DNA of 64,000 bases from Morinoia aosen (taxonomy: Eukaryota; Arthropoda; Malacostraca; Amphipoda; Talitridae), in assembly GCA_030386875.1 (NCBI GenBank), contig CM059562.1, forward strand, positions 64,726,201-64,790,200, given 5' to 3'. The position numbers and the translations under genes were made by a program. Every line of letters begins with the position of its first letter. Position 1 is the stretch's first letter. Positions 1,768 to 45,104 of the stretch are shown here, in pieces. The notes below the pieces were generated by a model. That model saw only the letters and a program-made list of their open reading frames with translations. It made no database searches and was not told the origin of the DNA.

Positions 1768-2635
1768 TACTGCTTCATTTCAACTTTAGCAATACATATG
1801 AACAAATATCCTACCATCAGTGTCTATTTCAAAATTGCATCTAAATAGATTCCAACAGCACACCCTGTTACTTTTCATTTCACAAACTTTATTTGCCACT
1901 CTCTGATCCATGCTGCTTAATGATATGTATCAACTAGCATATGCTTTTCTAGTGTAAGTAAACTTTAATCCTAAAAATTCTTTTCCAACAAAAATCCAAC
2001 TAAACTCTGATCAATAGCATTTACATCTAAATCACACAATGCCTAATGTGTCAACTATTGCTTAGAACACCCATTATGTTAAATTAGCATTCTTGACCAT
2101 AAAATAAATTATCAGTCTACCTTTTACTTTTTAGCAGTTATTTAGTTGTCATGCAATAAATGTCAACATTCTAACTTGAATAGCAATGTAGGTTTCCATT
2201 CCTTAAGAGTTCTTCACAGGACACACTTTTTCAAACTTTGTATTGGAACAATTTTTTTACCTATGAATCAACTGTAATTTTTAACACCTTCACATCAATT
2301 AAGAGGCACTATCCGTTCATACTAAGCTCATTAATGCCTACGTTACTTACATTACGCAGTTGTTTTTCAATTCTACTAACTTGTTAGTTATACACGACAC
2401 CTTATGCCAATTGTTTTACCCCCAACTACATCCATCAAAACAATAACATTTACCCAACAAAAATTTGACTAGTTACTGATTAGTGCGTTGTTCTGAAATA
2501 ATACATTATCATAGAAAATACTTTTACTTCCTTGCATTGTCATTATTCTATTTAAGTATACGGTACTTTAATCAGACTCCTATCCCTCTCAAAATGGCGC
2601 CCTCGCTACTTTCACTTATGCCAACAGTTTTACAC
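1768..2635. other. AT-rich non-coding spacer
   Basis: No gene, RNA or element ends could be recognised between the MITE target duplication and the outer edge of the palindrome. Open frames are short and have no family features. Confidence 0.5.
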
Positions 2636-2840
2636 CGGCGCGCCATTTTAGAGAACCCATCTAAGATCCTTCGCAAATTACCCTAACAAATAGGGTTATT
2701 TCTGAACTATAAGACGTACAATCTTGAAATTAAAACCAAATTAATGAGCGTGACGAGAACAACATATTTATGTATTTAAATAATTTTTTACGCCCCCGTG
2801 GGCGGCAGGAAGCGTGGCTCTCGTGGCCCCTCAATGGTCG

Positions 2841-3155
2841 GCCGATATTCTCGATTAACTTCACTTTCCGCCATCATTTATTTCTAAACTTTTGCACCAA
2901 AAAATTTGAAATTGGTTTTATTTTAAACATCAATTCATTTTGCAACGGAGAGTGTATAATATAACTCTCAAACGTTTCTTGGCGAGGCATGGACGGAAGT
3001 TTCCCTCCCCTCGCAATGGTCGGCCGATTTTCTCGATTGACCTCACTTTCCGCCATCATTTATTTCTAAACTATTGCACCTAAAAATTTGAAATTGGTTT
3101 CATTTTGAACATCAATTCATTTTGCAACGGAGATTGTATAATAAAACTCTCATAC
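2841..3155. repeat. Tandem pair of ~130-bp units (~185-bp spacing) in the palindrome arm
   Basis: Two similar blocks begin with cgat(a/t)ttctcgatt and run through ctttccgccatcatttattt to gcaacggaga(g/t)tgtataat. They lie at about 2,841-2,970 and 3,025-3,155, and the mirrored pair lies in the right arm. A third, more diverged relative lies at about 17,325-17,540. No coding potential is seen. Confidence 0.7.
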
Positions 3156-3824
3156 TCTTCCTGGGAGGATGACAGAGAGCAAGGTTCTCCTGGCCCCATA
3201 ATCCACGCTGGCGAGTGCCGTGTATACCTAACTTATGACGCGCTGTCTCAATGTGACGGTCCTTGTCTTGTCGTTTTTGCCCATCATGGCTTCGAAACCC
3301 AGCTCTAGGTGAAGATTTTTCGCTGTTGTAGAATAATCATTTCCATCTTTCTTACTCATGTAGACTTTTGTGAGGCAATATTATAAACATGGAAATGTCA
3401 TAATTCTGATGCATGTTGTAAACATTTTCTCCGAGTCCTTTAATTTCAAGAATATCAAGTCCATACATAGGAATAAAATTATATTTCTCAATGTCAACCT
3501 CGTTGCTTTAGACGTAGAATTATTTCGATCCAGCCGTTTTACTTTCAACAAATTACTTATACCGCAAATCACAGAGCTCGCATTTCACTGCCAGTGTGCA
3601 CCATAAACAGTATTCCTAAATATATATATTGTGATGGAAATCGTGTTTTCTTTTTAAGCAGCACAAGAGATACATTGTCCTCAATCATGTTTTTCGACTA
3701 GCAACATGGGTGTTACAATACTAATGTGTGGGTATCACACATGAGTGTTATACACACAGATGAGGGGGATTTTCCATACTTTTAAATATTTTAAAAATGA
3801 ATGATGTTATGTGCTCTGAGCAAA

Positions 3825-3966
3825 ATCGCCACCCGACTCTGGGCGGAGTTTCTCTGTTATCCCTGTAGGGGAAAAATTCAATGCACAATATCCCACTCTA
3901 CCCAGGTGTCTGAAATGGGTACCGATCTGACCGGGGGAAAGCGTCCTGGTGGTTGGTAGTTATAAG
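3825..3966 (+). mobile_element. tRNA-derived SINE fragment (body only), left palindrome arm
   Basis: The stretch matches the body of the SINEs at 28,395, 33,838 and 34,139, including the landmark cacccaggtgtctgaaat-like block and the ...gttagttataag segment. It lacks the tRNA-like head. It ends exactly where the hAT terminus CAGTGTTGGGC starts (3,967), because the hAT integrated into this SINE (see 4,937-6,988). This copy is the inverted duplicate of 6,989-7,140. Confidence 0.75.
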
Positions 3967-4538
3967 CAGTGTTGGGCAGTTGCGGCGCAACAAGTTGCGG
4001 CCGCAATTGCGATCGCAACTTTTTCTGTTGCGGTTGCGTAGCTACAATTTTTGGAACGTTGTGAATCTGTTGCAATCGCAACAATTTTCGACGTGTCAGG
4101 CCGCAACTCGCAACCGCTACATCACGATGGTAATTTAATTTTTAAAATGACTTCAATCAAGTTTAAAACGCGTTTCATTCTCGTTTGAAACTGAACCGTA
4201 CATGGTACAAAACATCTGGTAACTTTTTATTATTAGCACTTGTACATGCCCGTAAGTTTATAATATCTGACGAAAGGTAAGTACATATATACAAAATCTT
4301 TTATACACAAAAACACTCGTTTAATGCTGCAACGCAACCTTGTTTTAAACTTATTGAACAATGAAATTCTAACGAAATAATACAAAATTAATTTCTTAAC
4401 TTATTGAAGGAAAAGAAGTTCAAGCTGAAATCTACAAAATTTCTGAATGAACGACATTCCTCGTGACCGTTTTAGATTGGCACAGCTGTTGCCTATGTCT
4501 GGTTGATTAAGTGAATTCATGTTGGTCAGTAAATATTT

Positions 4539-4814
4539 TTATTGTCGCGGATTTCCAACTCTGCTAAGACCTACGTACAACTGACCATGGGTAAACACTG
4601 ATGCTGGTAGATTTATGCCGCATCTTGAAAGGCTCTGTCCTTGACTCTTATTTATTGACATAGCAGAAGCAGGTCTAATCGGAAATTGCCTTCGCCTCAA
4701 AGTAAATGGCAAGTCAGTGTCCGATTGTTGTAAAATAATTCGTGGAATCATCAATATGCGTTCACCAACACACTGCAAAGCTATTACACGATACTGTGTT
4801 GGCCTGGCCAACAC
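4539..4814 (-). pseudogene. Helitron Rep/helicase C-terminal fragment (left copy)
   Basis: A 91-codon minus-strand frame matches the end of the PIF1-like helicase domain of Helitron rolling-circle transposons. It reads [10 protein letters not shown], then a [16 protein letters not shown] segment, then [12 protein letters not shown] (helicase motif V) and [11 protein letters not shown] (motif VI), and stops shortly after. Everything upstream (Rep nuclease, Walker A and B) is absent. About 20 residues at the N-terminal side, beyond the palindrome edge at 4,753, are missing from the twin at 6,204-6,416. The upstream end of this frame lies in a 30-bp-arm hairpin, so its first residues are probably not original helicase. 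It is non-functional. Confidence 0.88.
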
Positions 4815-4835
4815 AGTATCGTGTAATAGCTTTGC
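4775..4835. repeat. Perfect 30-bp-arm hairpin with 1-nt loop
   Basis: Positions 4,775-4,804 (starting gcaaagctattacacgat) are the exact reverse complement of 4,806-4,835, with a single T at 4,805 between them. It lies just inside the left palindrome arm, at the broken end of the helicase fragment. Perfect arms and a near-zero loop suggest recent origin by a template switch, or an assembly fold-back. Confidence 0.95.
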
Positions 4836-5579
4836 TATAACTTGTTAAACAAACAACAGACAGACAGACATGGGTCCAGGGGATGAAATAGAGGCACCAT
4901 AATAAATTGATATTACACCAGCAAATGCCTTATAACCAGCGTTGGGCCCGCAACTTTTAAAATGTTGCGACGCAACCACAACACAACAAGAAAAGTTGCG
5001 ACGCAACCGCTACAGCAACTTTGAGAAAACCAAAGTTGTGGTCGCAACCGCAACTTTTTAATCATTGAATGTAATTTTAAAAAAATATTATTCAATTTCT
5101 TCTACGTATATATTGCTATGAAAAAAATATCAAGTTATTTAAAATAGTGCATTTTTTTACTAAAAAAAATTAATAGATCGAGTATATGTGTGGACTATGT
5201 AGAATTGAATGATATATAAAGATACTGAAAGAAACGTTTCATTGCAAAAAGATGAGAAAGAAACGTTCCATTTGGAAATATACCATGAACAGTAAAATGA
5301 ATTCCATTTCCTAAAATTAATATTAAAAAGATACCTGGCTAGTAGCTATATTTTGATAGGAGTTCGGTATATATAACAAGAAAATTAGAAAACAGGGAAG
5401 TGCAGATCATTTGTACAGCCTATATGACGCATGAAGAAAAACCATGCATGAGGTTCTGTAATATATGATATTCCTGGCGCTTTTCCTCTGCTTATTATTG
5501 TTCCTCTGTTCTGATTTATTACTGGTTCATGGTCTCAATGTGACAATGTTAATGCACTGTAATGACGATCAACGTTGCC

Positions 5580-5905
5580 TTGCAAAAATGTTTGTCTGAA
5601 GCCGAGCAAGTCGTGATCTCAAAATCTCATTGCCTAACGAGAACAGTCGTTCGACCGCAGCGCTCGTTGGTATTGGCGTGTTAAATTGAAAGGACTAAGC
5701 AACAAATTCACTTGAAGGTAACATCGCTCAGTGAACATCAGGGTGGCTAGTTCTGTTGATTACTGCCTGTTCGAGCCAATCATTGACTTGTTTCAATGAA
5801 CTTTTCTTCGCATTTACCTTATCATCCGATGTCATTACGATGTTGAAGAAGTCATCTTCGTCATCTACGTCCTCGGCTCTGCTCTCCTCAGCTGAAATAC
5901 CATTT
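5580..5905 (-). pseudogene. hAT transposase C-terminal remnant
   Basis: Reading the minus strand gives an acidic stretch, then a QVNDWLEQAV segment, two in-frame stops, and then NTPIPTSAAVERLFSLG followed by NEILRSRLARL. This is the hAT dimerisation domain: the ...PTSAAVERLFS... block is its hallmark. The catalytic N-terminal part was not found in the remaining 0.3 kb before the helicase fragment. The position, with the domain nearest the left TIR, agrees with a minus-strand transposase whose 3' end faces 4,937. Confidence 0.85.
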
Positions 5906-6203
5906 TCCGATCTGTTTTTAAGATAGTCAGTTAGTCTTTATGTTATTACCTCCACTCTCTTTACATCGCTAAGGCTTTTTAGCTTAAAATGGGGTTGAGG
6001 ACGCCAAGATAAAATCGTCGTTGCGAAGTACATTGGCAAATTGCAATATCTAGCTATGTAGATTTGGCGTATAACAGGTAATTTTACACTTACAACTCAC
6101 ATCATTCTTAATAACATATGTCATATATTGAGTTACATTATATATACTTATATACTGTAAGCAAAGTGTATGTGTATCAGAAATTGATGTTGGATAAATA
6201 TGG

Positions 6204-6416
6204 ATGATTCCACGTATTATTTTACAGCAATCGGACACAGACTTGCCATTTACTTTGAGGCGAAGGCAATTTCCGATTAGACCTGCTTTTGCTATGTCAA
6301 TAAATAAGAGTCAAGGACAGAGCCTTTCAAGATGCGGCATAAATCTACCGGCATCAGTGTTTACCCATGGACAGTTGTACGTGGGTCTTAGCAGAGTTGG
6401 AAATCCGCGACAATAA
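6204..6416 (+). pseudogene. Helitron helicase C-terminal fragment (right copy)
   Basis: A 70-codon frame starts at [10 protein letters not shown] and carries motif V (NKSQGQ) and motif VI ([11 protein letters not shown]), almost identical to the minus-strand copy at 4,539-4,814. It begins exactly at the inner edge of the right palindrome arm and lies inside the hAT at 4,937-6,988. It is a small captured or inserted fragment and not functional. Confidence 0.88.
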
Positions 6417-6988
6417 AAATTTTTGCCGACCAACTTGAATTCACTTAATCAACCAGACATAGGCAACAGCTGTGCCAATCTAAAACGGTCACGAGGAATG
6501 TCGTTCATTCAGAAATTTTGTAGATTTCAGCTTGAACTTCTTTTCCTTCAATAAGTTAAGAAATTAATTTTGTATTATTTCGTTAGAATTTCATTTTTCA
6601 ATAAGTTTAAAACAAGGTTGCGTTGCAGCATTAAACGAGTGTTTTTGTGAATAAAAGATTTTGTATATATGTACCTACCTTTCGTCAAATATTATAAACT
6701 TACGGGCATGTACTAGTGCTAATAATAAAGAGTTGCCAGATGTTTTGTACCATGTACGGTTCAGTTTCAAACGAGAATGAAACGCGTTTTAAACTTGATT
6801 GAAGTCATTTTAAAAATTAAATTACCATCGTGATGTAGCGGTTGCGAGTTGCGGCCTGACACGTCGAAAATTGTTGCGATTGCAACAGATTCACAACTTT
6901 CCAAAAATTGTAGCTACGCAACCGCAACAGAAAAAGTTGCGATCGCAATTGCGGCCGCAACTTGTTGCGCCGCAACTGCCCAACACTG

Positions 6989-7140
6989 CTTATAACTACC
7001 AACCACCAGGACGCATTCCCCCGGTCAGATCGGTACCCATTTCAGACACCTGGGTAGAGTGGGATATTATGCATTGAATTTTTCCCCTACAGGGGTAACA
7101 GAGAAAATCTCCGCCCAGAGTCGGGTGGCGCTTTTGTTCA
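6989..7140 (-). mobile_element. tRNA-derived SINE fragment, right palindrome arm
   Basis: The minus-strand sequence matches the SINE body (complement of caggtgtctgaaatgggtac and of ttatccc/gggtaacagagaaaat-type blocks). It is cut on its left by the hAT at the cttataac duplication. The missing SINE 3' part should lie left of 4,929. Only about 15 bases there (gcaaatgccttataac) still resemble it, so that side has degraded or been replaced. Confidence 0.75.
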
Positions 7141-8311
7141 GAGCACACAACATCATTCATTTTTAAAATATTTAAAAGTATGGAAAATCCCCCTCATCTG
7201 TGTGTATAACACTCATGTGTGATACCCACACATTAGTATTGTAACACCCATGTTGCTAGTCGAAAAACATGATTGAGGACAATATATCTCTTGTGCTGCT
7301 TAAAAAGAAAACACGATTTCCATCACAATATATATATATTTAGGAATACTGTTTATGGTGCACACTGGCAGTGAAACGCGAGCTCTGTGATTTGCGGTAT
7401 AAGTAATTTGTTGAAAGTAAAACGGCTGGATCGAAATAATTCTGCGTCTAAAGCAACGAGGTTGACATTGAGAAATATAATTTTATTCCTATGTATGGAC
7501 TTGATATTCTTCCAATTAAAGGACTCGGAGAAAATGTTTACATCATGCATCAGAATTGACATTTCCATATTTATAATATTGCCTCACAAAAGTCTACATG
7601 AGTAAGAAAGATGGAAAGGATTTATTCTACAACAGCGAAAAATCTTCACCTAGAGCTGGGTTTCGAAGCCATGATGGGCAAAAACGGCAAGACAAGGACC
7701 GTCACATTGAGACAGCGCGTCATAAGTTAGGTATACACGGCACTCGCCAGCGTGGATTATGGGGCCAGGAGAACCTTGCTCTCTGTCATCCTCCCAGGAA
7801 GAGTATGAGAGTTTTATTATACAATCTCCGTTGCAAAATGAATTGATGTTCAAAATGAAACCAATTTCAAATTTTTAGGTGCAATAGTTTAGAAATAAAT
7901 GATGGCGGAAAGTGAGGTCAATCGAGAAAATCGGCCGACCATTGCGAGGGGAGGGAAACTTCCGTCCATGCCTCGCCAAGAAACGTTTGAGAGTTATATT
8001 ATACACTCTCCGTTGCAAAATGAATTGATGTTTAAAATAAAACCAATTTCAAATTTTTCGGTGCAAAAGTTTAGAAATAAATGATGGCGGAAAGTGAAGT
8101 TAATCGAGAATATCGGCCGACCATTGAGGGGCCACGAGAGCCACGCTTCCTGCCGCCCACGGGGGCGTAAATAATTATTTAAATACATAAATATGTTGTT
8201 CTCGTCACGCCCATTAATTTGGTTTTAATTTCAAGATTGTACGTCTTATAGTTCAGAAATAACCCTATTTGCGAAGGATCTTAGATGGGTTCTCTAAAAT
8301 GGCGCGCCGGT

Positions 8312-8906
8312 CAGATTTACACATGTAAATTAAGAATTTTAAAACGAAAACTATTAAATACAATTGAAAAAATACTTGTCATTTATATCTAAAGGCGTGA
8401 ACCTCGATTTTGGTACCAGATGGCCTCGGATAATGAAATATCTCACCTCGTCCATTGACGCATTTGACGACGCAGAACCGACGTGAGGGGCACCCCTCGA
8501 ATGACGGTTTCAGCCGCAGGCGCCAGCCAAAATTTGGCGCGAAAATTTTACCTCCTGCGTGTAGCCGTAAAAAACACGCTCAGAAGTCCGAGGTAACGTG
8601 AATTGCAGCAGATTTATTGAACTTAAGCAACACACTTATTAATTACGTAATATTTGTCTGTAATTTACGTTCCGTGCTCTAGACTGCACTTGCTGACGTG
8701 GAAGCATTCGTGTAGTCAACATAGTAGCCAATCAGAACGTGGCATTTTTTACCATGAGTGGAAAAAACATGATAGACTATGGGAGAGAAAAAAGATTAAT
8801 TCACAAATAATTCCCTTATTTAAACTTCGAGAAATTTTGCAAATCAATATTATTTTGGTAACCATAAATTATATGCAATTTGTTTAGCAAAAACGATATA
8901 TCAATA
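8312..8906. other. Non-coding spacer
   Basis: No gene or recognisable element was found between the palindrome edge and the target duplication of the 8.2 kb element. A 77-codon frame at 8,654-8,887 has no family features. Confidence 0.5.
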
Positions 8907-13197: not shown

Positions 13198-13287
13198 TAA
13201 TTAAAAATAGGAAGACTAATGACACAACGCTTAGACTCATTTTAATGAGTCTAAGCGTTGTGTCATTAGTCTTCCTATTTTTAATTA
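13198..13287. repeat. Perfect 44-bp-arm hairpin with 2-nt loop
   Basis: Positions 13,198-13,241 (starting taattaaaaataggaagact) are the exact reverse complement of 13,244-13,287, with TT between. The word ttagttgatact occurs just before (from 13,151) and just after the hairpin. No terminator or RNA gene context is seen. Confidence 0.95.
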
Positions 13288-25397: not shown

Positions 25398-27945
25398 CAG
25401 TGTTGCCAATTTAGCATATTTTATGCTAAATTTAGCGTATTTTTGAGCTGTTCAGCATCGAAATTTGCTCATTTAGCATCTAGCATATTTTTTAGCTTGC
25501 GAAAACTAATTTTCAGCATAATTTTAGCATATTTTGAGCTCAACTTATATTCAAAACTGCAACGGAACGCGTTTGATCGGGTATGAAACGAGGTAACTAC
25601 GAGCCGGCCAGGCGCGCCACATATTCTTCGTTCGTCTGATCCTACCAATCAGTCTCGCGGTTGATTACGAATGATTCGTGTCTCCAACTGCAGTGCGTTG
25701 CCGGTTGCGGAAAATTTACATAACCATAAATTGGTGGTTGAGTTGATAGTGATGAATACGAACACTAAAATGAGTAAAGATCTTAAAAAATATTCACAAA
25801 AGTTTAGGAAAGAGTGGTTAAAAATGAAGGAGTTCAGTGCGTGGTTGTGCGAAGTACCGGGCGACAGTTCGAAGGCACATTGCAAGTTTTGCAGGTGTGA
25901 TATTGAAGCAAAGTTGAGTGTAATATCAAGGCACGCCGAAGCAAAAATACACACATCTGCTGTCCCACGTGAAGTGACCTCTTTGCAAAGCTTCTTCGCA
26001 CCGAAATCCAACGAAACAGCAAAAGTTGAAGGTTGCCTTGCTCTGTTCGTCTGCTGCCATTCATCGCTCAATTCCTGTGATCATTTAGTGGATCTATGTG
26101 AAACTGCAATCAAAGACAGTTCCGTGCTTTCAAAGGCTAAAATGCATCGCGCTAAATGTACGGCAATCGTTAAAAACGTTCTTGGCGTTCACTTTGAAGA
26201 GGATTTGGTCACTGACATTGGAAGCAATAAATTTAGCCTGCTACTGGATGAAAACAATGACGTGTCGGTGTGCAAAATACTTGGAATTGCCATAATTTAC
26301 TTCAGCAGAAAACACAGAAAAGTTATTCATACATTTCTAAGTTTAACTGTTTTAGAAAAATGTGATGCTACGAGTATCGTTTCTGCTGTAAAACAAGAAC
26401 TGACAAGGCTGAAGCTAAACAGTAACAAGCTAGTTGGCGTTGGTACAGACAACGCTAGTGTAATGACTGGAGTCAACAATGGAGTATACCAACAGTTAAA
26501 AGCCGATGTTCCCGACTTAATCCTTATCAAATGCACTTGCCATTCTCTACAGTTGGCAGTTTCTCATGCTTCTGCTGAAGCTCTTCCAAGAAATCTTGAG
26601 TTTCTAATAGGGGAAACGTACAAATGGTTCGCCCATTCAGCGACAAGACAAATTGCCTACAAGCAGCTATATGAAACAATAAATGATAGCAGATCTCCTT
26701 TGAAAATTCTGAACAATTGCGCTACCCGATGGCTATCAATTGAGCCTGCAATAGCTAGAATTATCAATCAATGGCTTGAGTTGAGAACTCATTTTGGAAT
26801 TGCACGCTTATCAGAAAAATGTTACACGGCTGAAGCCTTGCATGACATGTACCAAGATGAAACGAACTTGCTATATATGTTGGCTCTACATCCAGTTCTG
26901 GTCCAAGTTCAGCAAGTGAATAAAGCATTCGAATCAAATGATGCTGACAAGACGAAACTCTTCGAAGATCTTACTCGATTAATCAAATCAATTGCTAGAC
27001 CATTGATGCTACAATCCAGCAAAGTGGATCCAATACATTCGGACATAGAGAGTCACTTGGATCCGGAACCAAGTCTTGGTTTTAGATTTGAAAGGAAAGT
27101 GACAGAATTGATTAGTGACAACAAAACAACTATAGATAAAGTGAAATGCATTAGAACCAGATCGCAAAAGTTTCTTCTGAGCCTCTTTCGACAACTGAAG
27201 CAGAGACTGCCCGAAAACATCAATGTTTTGAAGCAAATCTCGTCCTTTTCAGTTCAAAACACTTTGAAACATGTTAAAGATTCAGTCACCCCAATATTGC
27301 AAGTTATGCTCAACACTGATGAAGAAGTAGCTGCAGCTGAATTGCAGTATAATAATATTCATTTAAGCAGTTGGAACAATGTCTCTCAAACGGAAGAATT
27401 TTGGACTGAAGTTGATGCTCACAGAGACTCGTCTGGTAATAATCCATTCAAAGAGCTAGCCGACTGTGCTTTGAGTTAGTTAGTGTTACCTAACTCGAAT
27501 GCAGAAATTGAAAGGATATTCAGTTCCATGAACATTGTAAAAAGTAAATTAAGAAACAGAATGGAACTGCCTTTACTAAACGCAATCTTAAGAGTCAAGT
27601 ATGGCCTGAAACGTCATGGCAAATGCTGTCAAAACTACGAGCTGCCAGCTTCGACGATCAGATCAATTGGTACAATGGCAACGTACAGCAAAGAAGAACC
27701 GAGTACTAGCTCACTCGAAAGTGACGTTGTTGCCGTTTTCAATGACGAAACTGATTTAAGCTGCTAAAAAAATACTTTTAGAAGTATCATCATTCAAATA
27801 TGGACTTAGAAATTGGTAAGTTGATATTAATAATAGATTTTTATATAGCATATTTTTCAGCATATTTCCAGAAATTTATTAGCATATTTAGCATAACTTT
27901 TTCTCTGTTTTGGCATATTCTACAAAATTTCATTTGGCAACACTG
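25398..27945 (+). mobile_element. Near-complete hAT transposon
   Basis: The ends CAGTGTTGCCAAtttag and ...TTGGCAACACTG are 12-bp inverted repeats. Flanks are ctgacgag (left, with two extra bases before the TIR) and ctgacgac (right), an imperfect 8-bp duplication. Both subterminal regions (25,410-25,540 and 27,845-27,915) are dense in the word TTAGCATA and its complement, likely transposase-binding sites. Between them lies one transposase gene on the + strand with a single stop. At 2,548 bp this is close to a full-length autonomous element. Confidence 0.92.
25671..27767 (+). pseudogene. hAT transposase, intact except for one in-frame TAG
   Basis: The frame runs 602 codons to a TAG at 27,477-27,479 and continues in the same frame to 27,767 (about 698 codons in all). 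In order it has an N-terminal zinc finger (C71, C74, H88, H94), an RNase-H-like catalytic domain with D193 in LLLDENND and D260 in GVGTDNASVMTG, the CTCHSLQLAV block (288-297), the CATRW block (350-354), and the C-terminal dimerisation motif NSNAEIERIFSSM just after the stop. The likely start is an internal Met such as M28 or M34. The stop would remove the dimerisation motif needed for activity. Otherwise the frame shows little decay, so the insertion is young. Confidence 0.93.
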
Positions 27946-28394: not shown

Positions 28395-28693
28395 GTGCTC
28401 GCGGTGGCACAGCGGTTAAGGGATCGGACTTGTATGTTGGAGTCGCGGGTTCGTATCCCGGAACTGGCGCTGCGATTTTCCCCGTTGGGTATGAGAGAAA
28501 GCTCAAGCCCAATACCCCACTCGACCCAGGTGTCGGAAATGGGTACCGGGTTTACGGGGGAACCGTCATGGTGTCCTATATATAGTGTTAGTTATAAGAC
28601 ATTTGAAAAACCAATGCTTAAGATCATTTTTATCAGGCTTGATTGGAAATAAAGCATCCCAAAGATGCCGATGTTTGTTGTTTGTTTGTTGTT
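28395..28693 (+). mobile_element. tRNA-derived SINE, head type 1
   Basis: The head has an RNA polymerase III A box (tggcacagcggttaagg) and B box (gggttcgtatccc). The body follows: gcgattttccccgttgggta, the cccaggtgtcggaaatgggt block, a tatatatag and gttagttataag segment, and a tail ending cttgattggaaataaagcat...gatgcc with a short inverted repeat. It ends in a tttgttg-rich tail. Same head and body as 33,838-34,128. Confidence 0.88.
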
Positions 28694-33837: not shown

Positions 33838-34128
33838 CCGTGGCTCTCCGTGGCACAGCGGTTAAGGGATCGGACTTGTATGCTGGAAGTCGCGGGTTCG
33901 TTCCCAGCGCTGGCGCGGAGATTTTCCCCGTTGGATATAAGGGAAAGCTCAAGCACAATACCCCACTCAACCCAGGTGTCGGAAATGGGTACCGGCTTTA
34001 CGGGGGAACCGTCATGGTGTCCTATATATAGGGTTAGTTATAAGACATTTGAAAAACCAATGCTGAGATCATATGTATCAGGCTTGATTGGAAATAAAGC
34101 ATCCCAAAGATGCCGATGTTAACCTTTA
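33838..34128 (+). mobile_element. tRNA-derived SINE, head type 1 (second copy)
   Basis: Very similar to 28,395-28,693: A box tggcacagcggttaagg, B box gggttcgttccc, then the same body and the cttgattggaaataaagcat tail with the gcatcccaaagatgc hairpin. Confidence 0.88.
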
Positions 34129-35145: not shown

Positions 35146-35716
35146 AAGTTCAAGACCTAGAAGAAATTCCTGCTGGAAATGAACCTGAGAGTGAAGATCT
35201 GTTAGTAATAAAGTGTGAAAGAATGCATGCCAGAGAATGTGTTATTGTGGTTGTATGCTATATGACAACTGATGGTATTTTAGCTCATCAAGAGAATGTA
35301 AAAAAGTATGAAATATTAACAAGAATTGTGCAAGAGCATTGCAGATGCCCTCTGATTGTGATGGGTGATATGAATGGCCATGTTGGTATACTTGGTGAGC
35401 CTGTGAACGCAAATGGACAAAAATTGATTGATTTCTGTGATGAGAATGAACTTGAGAACCTGAATGTAACAATAGGAAATGGCTTGCATACATGGCAAAG
35501 CAGGGAATGTAAAACTGCAATTGATTATATGATAGTGAATAGTAGAGCAAGAATATATGTCATAGAAATGTTTGTAGATGAAGATGATTTTGATATTGAT
35601 AGTGACCATAAAATGCTTCTACTAGAATATAATTGGGGTGGAAAGGAGTCAATGCAGAAGGCCAGCAGAGTAAGAGAAAATTGGCGTGTTAAAATGGCAA
35701 ACTGGGAAGAATTTAG

Positions 35717-36251
35717 GGTAAATGTAAAGGACTTGACCATAATTGATATTCGAATTTTCGATGCCTTAATAATGTTAATCACATGGAAATAAACAAGTTT
35801 TCTTCAATGCACTTTCCGGCGGAAATGAGTATTTTAAAAGTTATGGCGTTAAATGAGTTACCGGAACTCCATTGTGCATCACCCTATTACAAACGTAAAG
35901 AGGTTGGGTCGTGAGGGGTAGCCACAGTTCTTTTAGTTTTATAATTTTCACTAAAAGAACTGTTGCTACCCCTCACGACCCAACCTCTTTACGTTTGTAA
36001 TAGGGGGTTTGCTCTTCGTCGGCTTGGTTGGCGCGCGGGAACGCCTGTTTACTTTCACGTCGGACCGCGCGGTATATTTTTCCCCGCCTCAAACACTGGA
36101 GTTCCGGTAACTCATTTAATGCCATAACTTTTAAAATACTCGTTTCCGCCGGAAAGTCCATTGAAGAAAACTTGTTTATTTTCATGTGATTAACATTATT
36201 AAGGCATCGAAAATTCGAATATCAATTATGGTCAAGTCCTTTACATTTACC
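35717..36251. mobile_element. Short long-TIR element, copy 2, inserted in LINE B
   Basis: The ends GGTAAATGTAAAGGACTTGA and its complement match for over 150 bp. The flanks are gaatttag (35,709-35,716) and aaatttag (36,252-36,259), 7 of 8 identical. Copy 2 of LINE B reads straight through this site (gaagaatttaagaatgaatt near 42,405), which confirms the empty target. The centre is a 55-bp-arm palindrome. Confidence 0.93.
35883..36004. repeat. 55-bp-arm palindrome at the centre of the MITE
   Basis: Arms 35,883-35,937 (cctattacaaacgtaaagag...) and 35,950-36,004 pair with one mismatch around a 12-nt spacer. One end of the arm (ctctttacgtttgtaatagg) recurs at 46,141-46,160. Confidence 0.93.
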
Positions 36252-39076
36252 AAATTTAGAAATGAATTGAGTAGATGTAACTAGAACAGGTGTGGAAATG
36301 TAGATGACCTAATTAAGGAGATTGCAAGAACCTTGTATGATGTGGCAGAGCAAATGATCGGTAGAATGAAATGCAGCAAAAGTACAGGGAATGCTAGGTG
36401 GTTTAGGAGTGAGATAAAGGAAGAACGAACGAGAAGGAAGACTTTAAATAAACAACGCAGTATAAGGAAAATGTATGAAAGACGCAGAATTACTGAGGAT
36501 GAATGGCAGAGTGTATGGAATGAGTACAAGGACCAGCAGAAGAAAGTAAAGAGAATGATCAATGAGGCTAGGGTTAAAGAAGAGAGACACCAAGTTGAAA
36601 ATCTAAGAAAGAAAGGTCCAGATGGAATAAAAGATTGGTATAGGTTTATACAAGGTAATGATAGAGGTAGTGAAGGTCAAGTTGATGAATTAGTAGTCAA
36701 TGGTTGCAGTGTGCAAGATAGGATGCCAATGGTGAAAGCAGTTGAAGAATACTGGGAGGACATTGGTGGAATGAATGAGCAGGTTACAGATGATGAACCA
36801 ATAAATTTTCTGATAGATGAACGTGAACTGCAAATGGAAGACAAAATCACTTGTGAAGAGATTGTAAGTTTTTTGAAGAAAGTGAAAAATGGAAAGGCAT
36901 GTGGCCCTGATAAGATACCATATGAGTTCTATAAATGTGGAGGAGAGAGTGTAGTCAGTATGTTGAAATATTTATTTGATGAGATATGGAAGAGAGAAAG
37001 AGTACCGGATGACTGGAAAAAGTGTAATGTAGTTCTGTTGCATAAGGGTGGACATAAGAGTATGAAAGAACTTAAAAATTACAGACCAATTGCACAGGGT
37101 GACACCGTATGTAAGATCTTTTGTGGTATTTTGAATGAGAGAATGAAAAATTTAGTTAAGGAATTAGGAGTCCTGGGAGAAGAACAGAATGGTTTTAGGC
37201 AAGATAGACGGGGGGGAGGATAATCTGTTTGTAGTGAGTGAAATAATTGAGCGAATGAAGAAGGATAACAAGAAGGTATATTTAGCATTCCTGGATATTG
37301 AAAAGGCGTATGACAGAGTGGATCGGGTTAGGCTGTTTGAAATTTTGAGAAAAGTTGGTTTTAGCAGAAAAATAGTGAACATTGTACAGAGTCTGTATGA
37401 GAACACAAGTGCTTTCTACAGGTTAGGAAATTTGGAAACAGGGCAAGTGAGGAGTGAGACAGGGCTGTACTCTGTCCCTCCTGTTGTTTGGATTGTACAC
37501 AGAAGAATTAGCAGTTCGACTGAGAGGGAGTGGTTTAGGACTGAAAGTTGGTAATGAGAGACTGAGCTGTTTGTTGTATGCTGATGATGTGGTTGTGGTT
37601 AGTGAATGTGGTCATGAACTACAAAGGATGCTTGACATTGTGAATGGATATAGTACAGATTTCAAGATGAACTTTGGTGCCGATAAAAGTAAGGTCATGG
37701 TTATAAATAGTAATGAGACTGATAGAGACAGACTGTGGAATATTGGAGAAATCAGAATAGGTAGAACAAAAGAATATAAATATCTAGGTTGTATGATAAG
37801 TAAAGATGGATGTACTAGAACGAAAGGTGAGAAAGTGGCTAAAGCAATGCAGTGGAGTAAACGGTTAGGTAGTGTGGCCAGATACAGAGCAAACAAGTAC
37901 GAATGTGTGAGAGGAATGTGGAAGTATGTTGCTGTACCTAGTGTCATGTATGGTATGAGTGCTCTTGCTTGGAATGGAAGTGATCTTGAAAAGCTGGATG
38001 TGATACAAAATAAGGTAGGACGTGTAGCATTGGGTGCTCCGAAATGGACAGCTATAGAAGCCATTAGAGGTGACCTAGGGTGGAGCCTATTTTCAGAAAG
38101 AATGATGAAAGCTGTGCTGAATTATAAGGTGAGAATTGAAAGAATGCAGAATAGCAGGTGGGTAAGGCGAATCTTTGAATGGAATCTGAGTGTAAGCTAT
38201 TGGGAGAAAGTATGTTGGGGGCATGCAAGGAAACTCAGTATGCAAAAGATTATTCATGTTAGAATTGGGAGACCTGTGGTCCATGGATGACTGGAGTTTA
38301 ATAAATGTTGGAGGTGTAGGGCCTGAGTGACACTGCAAGAGGTGGAAGAAAAAGATTGAGAGACAAACAAAAGAGTATGGATTGAATAAGTGGAAGCTTA
38401 GCATGATGCGGAAGCATACACTTAACTGGTATATGAAAAAGAAAGCACCTAAGTTTGAGCTGTTCTATGATGGTAGTTTTGGAAGTCAACTCTTGTTTGC
38501 TGTGAGATGCAAGTCATTGAGTGTAAACAGACGTACATGGAGATGGAATGAGAATAACAACAGATTATGTCAGCAGTGTAATAGTGGAGTAGAGGAAACA
38601 ATTGAGGATTTTGTGCTGGAATGTAGTAAGTATGAGCAAGAGAGAGAGAGTTTTTTGAATGTGGTGTCTGAGCAGTATGGAGAGAATGAGTGGAATGCCA
38701 GATGTGCTGAAGATGATCGCGGTATGAGCTGTCTTGCTGGATTGGATCAGGAGTGTAATTTGAGTATCATTGAAGCTATGAAAATGTTTCTTGTGCGTGC
38801 CTGGAGTAAGAGACAGTGATTGGAATGAGCCAGTCAGGTAGAATGGTCAGTAATGACCCAATATGCCTGGGGATGGTGTTTTGACACACTGGCTATCCCA
38901 GTGATTCCATCCAATGGCAGCTTGTGACAAGGATTGGTAGATCCTGAGTAGTTTAGTGGACAAGTCTGTTACCAGGCGCTGAACTCTTTGTGTGAAAATT
39001 GTGGAGGGAATTGTGGGCCGTTACAAAGGCCCCGACGCTGTCGGCCCTCAATTTCAAGTTCAAGTTCAAGCAGCTT

Positions 39077-41474: not shown

Positions 41475-44400
41475 CTCGTCTGGTGTGTGTGAGATGAAAC
41501 TCTCCAAGAGATATATCCGGTGGATCAGGGCTACTCATGTCATAATGGAAGGTGGAACTGGATGAATGATAATCCGTCAGAGCAAAAGTGAGGAATGTCT
41601 TGAATTGTCCAATTGTGTTGTAAGGTTTGGAAGTATAAATGTGCGTGGATGGAATGCAGGAAATTTAGATGACCTTGTCGTAGAATTTGAAAATGGAAAA
41701 TTGGATTGTGTTGGTGTAGTGGAGACCCAAATGCGTGATAGTCAGTCTAACATGTAAGGAGAATAAGTATCATATGATAGGAAAAGGGCGTGTAAATTGG
41801 CAAAAAAGAGGTGGTGGAGTTGGTCTGATTGTAAAGAGTGCTCTAAATTGGAAATTAGAGGAACTTCCTGTTGGAAATGAACCTGATAGTGAAGATTTGT
41901 TATCAATTAAGTGTGAAAGAATGCATGTCAGAGAATGTATTTTTGTGATTGTATGTTATATGACAACTGATGGGATTTTAGCTCATGAAGAGAATGTAAA
42001 AAAGTATGAAATATTAACAAGGATTGTACGAGAACACTGCAGATGCCCTCTGATTGTGATGGGTTACATGACTGGCCATGTTGGTATACTTGGTGAGCCG
42101 GTGAATGCAAATGGACAAAAATTGATTGATTTCTGTGATGAGAATGAACTTGAGAACCTGAATGTCACAATAGGAAATGGCTTGCATACATGGCAAAGCA
42201 GGGAATGTATAACTGCAATTGACTATATGATAGTGAATAGTAGAGCAAGAGTATGTGTCAAAGAAATGTTTGTGGATGAAGATGATTTTGATATTGATAA
42301 TGACCATAAAATGCTTGTGCTAGAATATAATTGGGGTGAAAAGGAGTCAATACAGAAGGCCAGCAGAGTAAAAGAAAGTTGGCAAATAAAAATGGCAAAC
42401 TGGGAAGAATTTAAGAATGAATTGAGTAAGTGTAACTGGAACAGGTGTGGAAATGTAAATGACCTGAATGGTGAGACTGCAAGAACCTTGTATGATGTGG
42501 CAGAGCAAAAGATAGGCAGAATGAAATTCAGGAAAGGGACAGGGAATGCCAGGTGGTTTACAAGTGAGATGAAGGAAGAACGAATGAGAAGAAAGACTTT
42601 GAATAAGAAACAACGCAGTATGAGGAAAATGTATGAAAGAAACAGAATTACTGAGGATGAATGGCAGAGTGCATGGAATGAGTACAAGGAACAGCAGGAG
42701 AAAGTAAGGAGAATGGTTAATGAGGCTAGAGTTAAAGAAGAGAGACAAGTTGAAAATCTAAGAAAAAAAGGTCCGGATGGAATAAAAGATTGTTATAAGT
42801 TTATACAAGGTAATGATAGAGGTAGTGAAGTTCAAGTCGACGAATTAGTAGTCAATGGTTGCAGTGAGTGAGATAGGATGCAAATAGTGAAAGCAGTTGA
42901 AGAATACTGGGAGGACATTGGTGGAATGAATGAGCAGGTAACAGATGATGAACCCGTAAATTTTCTGATTGATGAACATGAACTGCGAATGGAAGATGAA
43001 ATCACTTGTGAAGAGATAATAAGTTTTTTGAAGAAAATGAAAAATGGAAAGGCATGTGGCCCTGATAAGATCCCATATGAGTTTTATAAATGTGGAGGAG
43101 AGAGTGTAGTCAGTATGTTGAAATGTTTATTTGATGAGATATGGAAGAGTGAAAGAGTACCGGATGACTGGAACAAGTGTAATGTAGTTCTGTTGCATAA
43201 GGGTGGACATAAGAGTATGAAAGAACTTAAAAATTACAGACCAATTGCACTGGGTGACACTGTATGTAAAATCTTTTGTGGTATTTTGAATGAGAGAATG
43301 AAAAATTTAGTTGAGGAATTAGGAGTCCTAGGTGAAGAACAGAATGGATTTAGGCAAGATAGACGTGGGGAGGATAATCTGTTTGTAGTGAGTGAAATAA
43401 TTGAGCAAATAGGAAGGATGAAAAGAAGGTATATTTAGCATTCCTGGATATTGAAAAGGCATATGACAGAGTGGATTGGGTTAGGCTCTTTGAAATTTTA
43501 AGAACAGTTGGGTTTAGCAGAAAAACAGTAAAAATTGTACAAAGTCTGTATGAGAACACAAGCGCAATATACAGGTTAGGAGATATGGAAACAGGGCAAG
43601 TGAGGAGTGTTAGAGGTGTGAGACAGGGCTGTACTGTGTCTCCCCTGTTGTTTGGATTGTACACAGAAGAATTAGCAGTTCGACTGAGAATGAGTGGCTT
43701 AGGACTGAAAGTTGGTAATGAGAGACTGAGCTGTTTGTTGTATGCTGATGATGTGGTTGTGGTTAGTGAATGTGGACATGAACTACAAAGGATGCTCGAC
43801 ATTGTGACTGGATATAGTACAGATTTCCAGATGAAATTTGGGGTTGACAAAAGTAAGGTTATGGTTATAAATAGTGATGAGATTGATAGAGACAGACTGT
43901 GGAATATTTGAGAAATCAGAATAGGTAAAACAAAAGAATACAAATATCTAGATTGTTTGATAAGTGAAGATGGATGCATTAGAACTAAGGGTGAGAAAGT
44001 GGCAAAAGCAATGCAGTGGAGTGGATGGTTAAGTAGTGCGGCCAGATACAGAGCAAACAAGTATGAATGTGCGAGAGGAATTGTAGGACATGTAGCATTG
44101 GGTGCTCCAAAATGGACAGCTACAGAAGCCATTACAGGTGACCTAAGGTGGAGCCTATTTTCAGAAAGAATAATGAAAGCTGTGCTGAATCATAAGCTGA
44201 GAATTGAAAGAATGCAGAATAACAGGTGGGTAAAGCAAATTTTTGAATGGAATCTGAGTGTAAGCTATTGAGAGAAAGTATGTTGGGGGCATGCAAGGAA
44301 ACTAAGTATGCAAAAGATTATTCATGTTAGAATTGGGAGACCTGTGGATGACTGGAGTTTAATAAATGTTGGAGGTGTAGGGCCTAAGTGGGACTGCAAG

Positions 44401-45104
44401 AGGTGGACAAAAGAGTATGGATTGAATAAGTGGAAGCCTAGCATGACACGGTAGCCTTCACTTAACTGGTATATGCAAAAGGAAGTACCTAAGTTTGAGA
44501 TGTTGTATGATAGTAGTTTTGGAAGTCAGCTCTTGTTTGCTGTGAGGTGTAAGTCATTGAGTGTGAACAGACCTACATGGAGGTGGAATGAGAATAATAA
44601 TAGTGTCGGCAGTGTAATGGTGAAGTGGAGGAAACAATTGAGCATTTTGTGCTGGAATGTAGTAATTATGAGCAAGAGAGTTTCATGAATGTGGTGTTTG
44701 AGCAGTATGGAGAGAACAAGTGGTATGCCAGATATGCTGAAAATGATTGTGGTATGAGCTGTATTGTTGGATTGGATCAGGAGTATAATTTGAGTATCAT
44801 TGAAGCTATGAAAGTTTTTCTTGTATGTGTCTGGAGTAAAAGACAGTGACTGGTATGAGCCAGTCATGTAAAGTGGGCGGTAATGACCCACCATGCCTGG
44901 GTGATGGTGTCTTGACGTACTTGTTATCCCAGTGATGCCGTCTAATGGCAGTTTGTGACAAGAATTGGTGGATCCCACATAGTATTGGACAAGTCTGGTA
45001 CACAGGCGCTGAACTCTTTGTGTGAATATTGTGAGTATTGAGGGAATTGTAGGCCGTTATGAAGGCCCCATTGCTTTCGGCCCTCAATTTCAAGTTCAAG
45101 TTGT
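41475..45104 (+). mobile_element. Non-LTR retrotransposon family B, copy 2 (near full length)
   Basis: The start of the endonuclease is preserved, with ~90 bp of probable 5' UTR after the LINE C tail. The end carries the family tail (ggccgttatgaaggcccc ... ggccctcaatttcaagttca). Compared with copy 1 it lacks the MITE but has its own deletion of about 100 bp near 44,080, where the segment between CARGI and VALGAP is missing. Confidence 0.88.
41566..44849 (+). pseudogene. LINE family B ORF2, copy 2
   Basis: The endonuclease begins RFGSINVRGWNAGNLDDL and VGVVETQMRD, shifts frame near 41,750, and continues KGRVNWQKRGGGVGLIVKS, CPLIVMGYMTGHVG (the D of GDMN changed to Y) and AIDYMIV. A single in-frame TGA (42,869-42,871) precedes the RT (42,878-43,438: GPDKIPYEFYKCGG, LKNYRPIALGD). 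After a frameshift, 43,471-43,911 carries GVRQGCTVSPLLFG and YADDVVVVSE. A TGA at 43,909, the deletion near 44,080 and shifts near 44,620 follow, ending in a degraded Cys-rich C-terminus. It is inactive. Confidence 0.9.

Follow-up and report, generated by a model that had tools for sequence, protein, structure and literature searches.

The palindrome at positions 2,634–8,311 of the window (the whole 64,000-nucleotide stretch of DNA analysed here) is, with a probability that we put at roughly 0.87, a fold-back DNA transposon of non-autonomous type, probably Mutator-like (MULE), which is flanked by a 9-bp target duplication and would have reached its present form in six steps.

Aligned in inverted orientation, the two arms (2,634–4,757 against 8,311–6,198) are identical in 2,071 of 2,129 columns (97.3%), with 38 substitutions, 21 of them transitions, and 20 gap columns. 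This confirms the palindrome described in the original prediction. The predicted layout holds, but the exact arm limits and the 1.45-kb spacing do not: the ends lie at 2,634 and 8,311, and the spacer is asymmetric and 1,440 bp long. Likewise, the arms are highly alike but not "almost identical". In each arm, the outer 1.33 kb forms a terminal inverted repeat (TIR), which reaches 2.1 kb with its inner extension. Long TIRs, internal tandem repeats of ~165 bp and variable interiors, all features of the Foldback structural class, are present. The components are as follows.

2,625–2,633: target-site duplication, left copy CAGTTTTAC, matching the right copy CAGATTTAC at 8/9 positions
2,634–3,966, plus strand: left TIR of the fold-back element, begins ACCGGCGCGCC
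2,827–3,171, plus strand: two tandem sub-repeats in the left TIR, ~165 bp each and ~90% identical
3,825–3,966, plus strand: segment derived from a SINE, innermost in the left TIR and closing with the hAT target GTTATAAG; its outer boundary was placed by eye
3,967–4,757, minus strand: right end of the hAT, copied secondarily in inverted orientation, with most of the Helitron-like piece (about 4,243–4,757)
4,757–4,758: novel junction between hAT and element interior
4,758–4,928, plus strand: single-copy interior left of the hAT, with a near-perfect 61-bp palindrome at 4,775–4,835
4,929–4,936: hAT target duplication CTTATAAC, left copy
4,937–6,988, plus strand: nested non-autonomous hAT, begins CAGCGTTGGGC, terminates GCCCAACACTG
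6,180–6,712, plus strand: Helitron-derived piece (C-terminal helicase) inside the hAT; right limit uncertain by ~10 bp
6,989–6,996: hAT target duplication CTTATAAC, right copy
6,997–8,311, minus strand: right TIR of the fold-back element, terminates GGCGCGCCGGT
7,513–8,311: outer portion of the right arm, which has been homogenised with its left counterpart since the window copy separated from copy L009; inner edge between 7,513 and ~7,636
8,312–8,320: target-site duplication, right copy CAGATTTAC

The SINE predicted in this stack is real but small, about 0.14 kb per arm with limits set partly by eye, and lacks the tRNA-like head. Positions 3,878–3,951 are 84% identical to the body of a SINE at 33,843–34,120 of the window, and a tRNA gene search of the window found none. 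The exact 8-bp duplication on both sides of the hAT is read directly, as claimed, and the short TIRs CAGNGTTGGGC are the second hAT class feature; two standalone hAT relatives have target duplications matching at 6/8 and 7/8 positions (counted by eye). The minus strand of the nested hAT carries what we take to be a hAT dimerisation motif; Pfam scans of 35-aa and 52-aa pieces from this strand gave no match. Helitrons have the termini TC and a hairpin with CTRR, and the Helitron content of the hAT is a C-terminal helicase fragment only. Its placement within the hAT, also predicted, is borne out: two standalone hAT copies that were read lack the piece, further search matches skip over it, and its open frame in a relative (L017) matches Helraiser (PDB 7lcc) over residues 14–103 with an E-value of 4.9e-24. 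L032 and L033, two copies related by segmental duplication, have the SINE tail with an empty hAT target site (by eye), in agreement with the proposed order of SINE before hAT. The left arm indeed repeats the hAT right end alone (3,967–4,757), and these inner 0.79 kb arose secondarily by inverted duplication.

DNA searches, in each of which the best 40 candidates were scored, reveal relatives of the left arm scattered across the 1.99-Gb genome, taken to be that of an arthropod on the strength of 17 matches to hemocyanin domains. We fetched 29 loci, which include the segmental duplicates L020/L022, L029/L030 and L032/L033, so that independent insertions are fewer than loci. Inverted arms longer than 150 bp occur in 16 of the 29, as well as in the window copy. 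One of them, L009, lies on another contig and has the same structure, the same 1,440-bp spacer and its own perfect 9-bp target duplication; it is 97.7% identical to the window copy over 5,710 columns, with 96 mismatches. The junction between hAT and interior is common, with base variants, to eight of the nine extended copies read, and the inner 0.79-kb duplication therefore predates the spread of extended copies; the ninth (L018) is differently joined, apparently by deletion. All six short-type copies, which lack the extension, have 9 bp of the hAT end in their left TIR. A single genome holds an empty-site copy, short-type copies, extended copies (790 bp), deletion derivatives and presumed end-swapped copies.

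A target duplication of 8–9/9 lies exactly at the ends of four of the eight two-ended copies (the window copy, L009, L015 and L031). Six of eight are reached by counting L013, with a 10-bp duplication (10/10), and L028, with one end shifted by 7 bp (8/9); none of 56 cross pairs reaches at least 6/9 in a control with shifts disallowed. A clear duplication is missing in the other two (L011, 5/9; L010, 7/9 only after one end is moved by a base), and the flanks of facing ends at C4:69.75 Mb, when compared, gave no duplication match.

These copies bear on two earlier readings of the locus. The original prediction regarded the palindrome as a recent, local inverted duplication of its right half, which would account for the high arm identity and for the hAT right end standing alone in the left arm. 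However, the outer 1.33 kb is a TIR, the palindrome ends are flanked by their own target duplication, the outer inverted repeat occurs in short-type copies that lack the extension, and the same structure and junction recur at another locus with a different target duplication. That difference and the 96 mismatches also oppose L009 being an assembly copy of the window locus, and we consider a local duplication highly improbable. The palindrome is known from assembled sequence alone, and a fold-back chimeric read or merged haplotypes could in principle generate such a structure. Yet the arms differ by 38 substitutions, the spacer is asymmetric, and a second locus has the same structure and shares arm-specific sites with the window copy; such an artefact is very unlikely, with a chance close to nil.

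The original prediction also invoked gene conversion between the arms. In a four-arm site test of the window copy and L009, for which the comparison rows were L010, L011, L012 and L015 only, 6/6 outer informative sites group the two arms of the window copy together, whereas at 17/18 inner sites each arm pairs with the corresponding L009 arm (Fisher p ~1e-5). Tree nodes joining WIN_dup with L009_dup and WIN_orig with L009_orig have values of 100/97 and 97/91, respectively. The switch in site topology is directly observed and upholds conversion, but not along whole arms: since the split from L009, only the outer ~0.7–0.8 kb of the window copy's arms has been homogenised. Since its left arm differs from the matching L009 arm at 17/667 positions in the outer TIR and at only 16/1,457 in the inner parts, a third copy may have contributed to the outer TIR of the window copy.

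We tentatively suggest, while regarding it as rather doubtful, that homogenisation in this family runs inward from the ends when an element moves (by end repair or gap filling at transposition) and not while the palindrome is static. The outer arms group within the element in two pairs at different loci, the window copy with L009 (6/6 outer sites) and L010 with L011 (6/7), whereas L029 and L030 are segmental duplicates that have stayed in place, and there 67/67 sites keep arm identity with zero within-element grouping. The comparison covers three pairs, and both the time since they separated and the larger difference between the arms in L029/L030 confound it. If homogenisation does accompany movement, every jump would rewrite the ends and could lengthen them into any sequence that had landed in the opposite arm.

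A putative autonomous relative of 18 kb lies at C10:30,612,988–30,631,104 and was read apart from 30,613,101–30,615,799 (the first 2.7 kb inside its left end). Its ends are near-identical, with 40-bp ends identical, and its target duplication, TCTAACGTC/TCAAACGTC, matches at 8/9 positions. It contains an uninterrupted 1,198-aa transposase-like frame and other insertions. A GGCTAGCC end at C10:30,616,452 was rejected as the left bound of this element, as its flank mismatches the right flank and it belongs to a different subfamily; the matching left end is 30,612,988. The sole Pfam match of the 197-aa core of the frame is to PF10551 (Pfam MULE), at 15.6 bits against a cut-off of 27.6 (E = 0.022), and pieces of 741 and 489 aa have no MULE match in Pfam at E 1. 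By eye, the motifs LDSTGG, VVDHSF, CHAH and VEGWH give the order D...D...CxxH...E; a DDE triad with CxxH between the second D and E is described for Muta1 in the excerpted text of PMC5225508. As domain matches are absent or below threshold, the superfamily assignment rests mainly on the duplication length, which is within the 8–10 bp of MULEs, and on the long TIRs. From these sequence features, the window element most likely belongs to the MULE superfamily. The putative protein of the linked frame would mobilise window-type elements in trans. PF10551 matches number 87 genome-wide, counted irrespective of these TIRs. Only two of 75 transposase-like frames have one of the 32 entered outer-TIR places within 25 kb, which we count against our explanation.

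The history that we propose would begin with an element with long TIRs acquiring a SINE inside its TIR. A hAT, with the Helitron piece already aboard or gained later, would then have landed in the SINE-derived portion of the right TIR. The left TIR presumably suffered a break or replication gap, which was mended with the right TIR as source; copying would have passed beyond the shared TIR, 790 bp into the hAT, and the copied end would have been joined to the interior with an overlap of at most 1 bp and loss of part of the old interior. Transposition would have spread the extended element. In one subfamily the outer ~0.5–0.6 kb of both TIRs would have been swapped for the kind found on the element with the open transposase-like frame: over this length the left TIR of the window copy resembles that of the putative autonomous relative, and its inner part resembles the hAT-bearing subfamily. 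Lastly, conversion would have homogenised the outer ~0.7–0.8 kb of the window copy's arms, after the split from L009.

Two alternatives leave the fold-back transposon in place and change one part of this account. Instead of being copied one-sidedly from the opposite TIR, the extension could stem from two copies that underwent crossover or unequal exchange. Many copies exist, and since outer TIRs are chimeric between subfamilies, exchange between copies seems to occur; the near-blunt inner junction (judged by eye), however, fits end-joining after aborted copying at least equally well, and we regard exchange as a serious but less favoured candidate. The element could also belong to another DDE superfamily, in line with the frame pieces having no Pfam match above cut-off. 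Against this stand the 9–10-bp duplications, the long TIRs, the MULE domain as the only, if sub-threshold, match of the core and the order of the motifs, and we think a non-MULE origin unlikely. Membership of the P superfamily, with Galileo, was rejected: the duplications are 9–10 bp and not 7, and the frame pieces have no THAP or P-type match at E 1.

One-sided copying of the kind preferred here has a precedent. In the available portion of PMC3573991, 2RT copies of Galileo in Drosophila mojavensis, with extended or recombinant TIRs, are attributed to copying that used the opposite TIR as template and ran beyond its inner end, and recombination and copying between TIRs are proposed as the cause of long TIRs. 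As in the window family, inverted duplication of sequence adjoining the other TIR lengthens the TIR, and chimeric copies combine the ends of one subfamily with the interior of another. Galileo differs in being a P-superfamily element with 7-bp duplications and, in the text consulted, in recruiting its own interior, whereas what the window family has recruited is the terminal part of a nested hAT, foreign to the element and containing a Helitron piece. Tetris, a fold-back element of Drosophila virilis, is likened here by description, not by sequence: its long TIRs combine an outer and an inner domain with tandem repeats of ~220 bp, it makes 8–10-bp duplications, and a Mutator affiliation is proposed; the sections seen report no transposase-bearing copy, whereas the window family has a linked open frame (PMC4079207). 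Tm1, a Mutator/Foldback element of root-knot nematodes, likewise has composite TIRs that contain tandem repeats, makes 9-bp duplications, includes a group with a transposase and shows nested insertions, but has a ~14-bp tandem motif, and TIR extension into a nested transposon is not described in the excerpts of PMC3169594. The Drosophila Pack-TIRs FB4/Ssk-FB4 are likewise fold-back elements with 9–10-bp duplications and ~700-bp repetitive TIRs, and template switching followed by transposition is proposed to have spread their chimeric structure; unlike in the window family, what they captured is a host gene that the element carries and that is not part of the TIR (PMC8277862, in extract).

Each individual step is known elsewhere, and the route of TIR growth has already been proposed for Galileo; what is particular here is that most stages are kept as copies in one genome. 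This set of copies, together with a linked open frame of transposase-like type, allows the proposed steps to be put in order and each to be tested on individual copies, which bears on the open question of what makes very long, repetitive TIRs arise convergently in unrelated transposons. The family also shows that a palindrome in an assembly whose arms are ~97% identical need not be a recent rearrangement but can be a long-established mobile structure in which conversion has been patchy.

Self-comparison of the window returns, as its top non-trivial match, an inverted repeat whose arms are 97.3% identical; they are listed here with the hAT transposon.

2,634–4,757: left arm
8,311–6,198: right arm, inverted
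4,937–6,988: hAT transposon, with an exact 8-bp duplication at both sides

The full arm-to-arm alignment has 2,129 columns, of which 2,071 are identical, 38 are substitutions (21 transitions) and 20 are gaps, and a spacer of 1,440 bp lies between the arms. Of the hAT, the left arm holds the right end only. The palindrome starts with ACCGGCGCGCC and ends with GGCGCGCCGGT, and its immediate flanks, CAGTTTTAC and CAGATTTAC, match at 8/9 positions; the random probability of a match at 8 or more of 9 is 1.8e-4 at the composition of the window. The palindrome is a transposon copy.

In the assembly (G000; 1.99 Gb, 29 contigs), where match counts are lower bounds, the left arm gave at least 68 matches (best 40 of 5,796 candidates scored). 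Beyond the window the matches lie in 29 places, all of which we retrieved; among them are the mutual segmental duplicates L020/L022, L029/L030 and L032/L033. An inverted arm pair of more than 150 bp is present in 16 of the 29, as in the window. One locus, L009 (contig C3:8,227,254–8,232,959), carries this 5.7-kb structure too, oppositely oriented, and is 97.7% identical to the window copy over 5,710 columns (96 mismatches; spacer 1,440 bp in both). Within 1 kb of each window flank, the sole sequence found to be shared with L009 is about 130 bp of interspersed repeat, which recurs elsewhere in the window. The structure therefore moved as a unit. As separate observations, the interior of the element holds a 61-bp near-perfect palindrome (4,775–4,835) with a self-complementary counterpart in 11 of the 29 loci, and a second one of 90 bp (97.8%) lies at 13,198–13,287.

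Both ends are readable in eight copies, window copy included, and the nine bases exactly at the ends reach 8 or 9 matches in four of these.

Matches between the end flanks of the other two-ended copies
L009: GCTGCAAAC, 9/9
L015: CTCGTTTAG, 9/9
L031: GTGAAGTGG, 9/9
L013: 10 bp, 10/10
L028: 8/9, needing a 7-bp shift of the left end
L010: 7/9, after a one-base move of the right end
L011: 5/9

As a control, none of 56 cross pairs reached 6/9 with nine bases and no shifts; with nine or ten bases, again without shifts, one cross pair had 6 matches and two had 7 (best 7/10).

Two architectures can be distinguished among the hAT-bearing copies, the remaining loci being too truncated or lacking the hAT.

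Short type (order left TIR, interior, hAT, right TIR): L016, L019, L024, L028, L031 and L035, some truncated
Extended type: window, L009, L012, L015, L026, L027 and L037, with deletion derivatives L010, L011 and L018

In all six short-type copies the left terminal inverted repeat (TIR) reads GTTATAAG, exactly or with one base different, followed by CAGTGTTGG and TGTAATAT; it carries 9 bp of hAT end at the point at which the window copy, on its right side and with the hAT removed, reads GCATTTGCTGG. In the extended type, the TIR of one side runs on into the right end of the hAT and then meets the interior. Eight of nine printed copies (L011 not among them) have one and the same junction, ATCAATAT|GC, apart from base variants such as ATCAATTT|GC in L010; the junction of L018 differs in the pattern expected from a deletion across it. 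By eye, the parental sequences overlap by one base at most. A single extension event followed by spread is the simplest reading.

The TIR is about 1.33 kb long. In L032 and L033 its inner end carries a SINE tail with an empty hAT target site, GTTATAAGGCATTTGAAAAGCC, resembling by eye the window SINEs at 28.4 and 33.8–34.4 kb, two of which show a tRNA-like head, again by eye. The hAT inserted into this SINE. Standalone hAT relatives elsewhere, two of which were read, lack query positions 1,244–1,776 (about window 6,180–6,712), and the open frame that a relative has in this piece is similar to Helraiser (E 4.9e-24) as well as to PIF1 helicases. Together, these data place the SINE first, then the hAT, with the Helitron piece within the hAT, and so bear out the original prediction; the piece may have joined the hAT either earlier or later than the hAT's insertion into the TIR.

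Several further elements were seen. SINE copies at 28,397–28,675 and 33,843–34,120 (92.5%), the two whose head looks tRNA-like by eye, flank both ends of a reverse-transcriptase-like stretch from just outside. Two neighbouring copies of one element, which from its frames we take to be LINE-like, lie at 35,158–39,066 and 41,856–45,102 (86–92% identical). An open 604-aa frame at 25,665–27,479, with a sub-threshold DUF4371 match, looks like another hAT-type transposase. At L015:2515–5010, an open frame of 832 aa for a reverse transcriptase (RVT_1 at 29.4 bits against a cut-off of 29.6), which looks Penelope-like, is inserted into the hAT of this relative. Hemocyanin-domain frames, nearly all long and open, cluster at C13:64.80–64.90 Mb (10/17 matches) and C23:9.01–9.06 Mb (5/17); the 17 matches suggest that the genome is that of an arthropod.

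The arms differ less in their outer part (4/654, up to 3,300) than further in (34/1,455; Fisher p 0.004). When the two arms of the window copy are compared with the two of L009, sites that split them two against two switch their grouping (Fisher p about 1e-5): all six at 2,836–3,264 pair the window's own arms, whereas 17 of 18 at 3,446–4,753 place each arm of the window copy with the corresponding arm of L009. A tree of hAT ends is in accord for the inner part (node supports 100/97 and 97/91). Thus, the differences between the inner arms predate the separation of the window copy from L009, and later homogenisation in the window copy was confined to the outer part. Six derived states (2,697–3,322) occur in both window arms and in the L009 counterpart of the left arm, none clearly in the other L009 arm. 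Conversion from left to right is suggested, only tentatively because the distances between the window copy and L009 are greater in the outer part (17/667) than in the inner (16/1,457) and the outer part may derive in part from a third copy. The L009 arms show no such gradient: they differ at 24/667 positions in the outer part and at 19/660 further in within the TIR.

In the same tree, both hAT-end segments group by element or subfamily for the window subfamily, L026 (100/99) and L015 (94/85); those of L012 do not, and L037 shows no clear grouping. Given a single junction, this grouping indicates that in some lineages the arms have been homogenised repeatedly. In the L010/L011 pair, six of seven sites group within the element; in the segmental duplicates L029/L030, all 67 sites group by arm, i.e. 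without conversion.

In 100-bp bins, the outer TIR of the window copy (2,634–3,133) is 91–92% identical to the TIR of an element on contig C10 (L036) and 68–91% to the other hAT-bearing copies compared. The inner part, from about 3,234, is mostly 87–99% identical to the same hAT-bearing copies, with a few small bins lower, and drops to 38–69% against L036, i.e. no alignment. A 697-bp outer query gave at least 80 matches (best 40 of 1,882 candidates scored); among those listed, matches from query base 1 outside the window subfamily mostly stop at 522–613. At C10:30,612,988–30,631,104, two ends of the outer-TIR type, identical over the 40 bp printed, face each other between flanks TCTAACGTC and TCAAACGTC (8/9). 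This 18.1-kb stretch, read in part, contains further insertions and, inside the facing ends, an uninterrupted 1,198-aa frame (30,624,375–30,627,968). About five 31-aa repeats were noted at its N-terminus (L038:7776–8400), and copies may differ in how many they have, as 93-bp offsets recur in the comparison with L041.

Searched with 579 aa of the frame, the genome gives at least 75 matches (75 scored of 873 candidates), 84–100% identical, with open frames of 658–1,359 aa. At one other locus, on contig C25, homology is continuous from frame into TIR (97.9% over 4,162 columns); facing ends on contig C4 (69.75 Mb) have no target duplication. An outer-TIR place lies within 25 kb of only 2 of 75 frames (32 TIR places entered). 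This number is probably too low, the TIR candidates scored being 40 of 1,882, but it stands against a tight link of frame and TIR at every copy. Pfam gave only a MULE match below threshold, in the frame core, and the PDB search a weak cysteine-protease match alone, in the C-terminal part (E 0.094). The element is probably Mutator-like, mainly on its 9–10-bp duplications and long TIRs, and from the shared ends we infer a putative mobilising enzyme.

The accounts of Tetris (PMC4079207), Tm1 (PMC3169594) and FB4 (PMC8277862) describe a fold-back plan and 8–10-bp duplications, as in the window family. For Galileo, 2RT copies are described, with a model in which copying continues beyond the opposite TIR's inner end and yields TIR1-F1-F1-TIR2 (PMC3573991). 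In the papers listed by literature searches, titles and abstract openings gave no case of a TIR that extends into a foreign, nested transposon, which does not prove absence. The kind of event is thus known, and the window family represents a well-documented variant.
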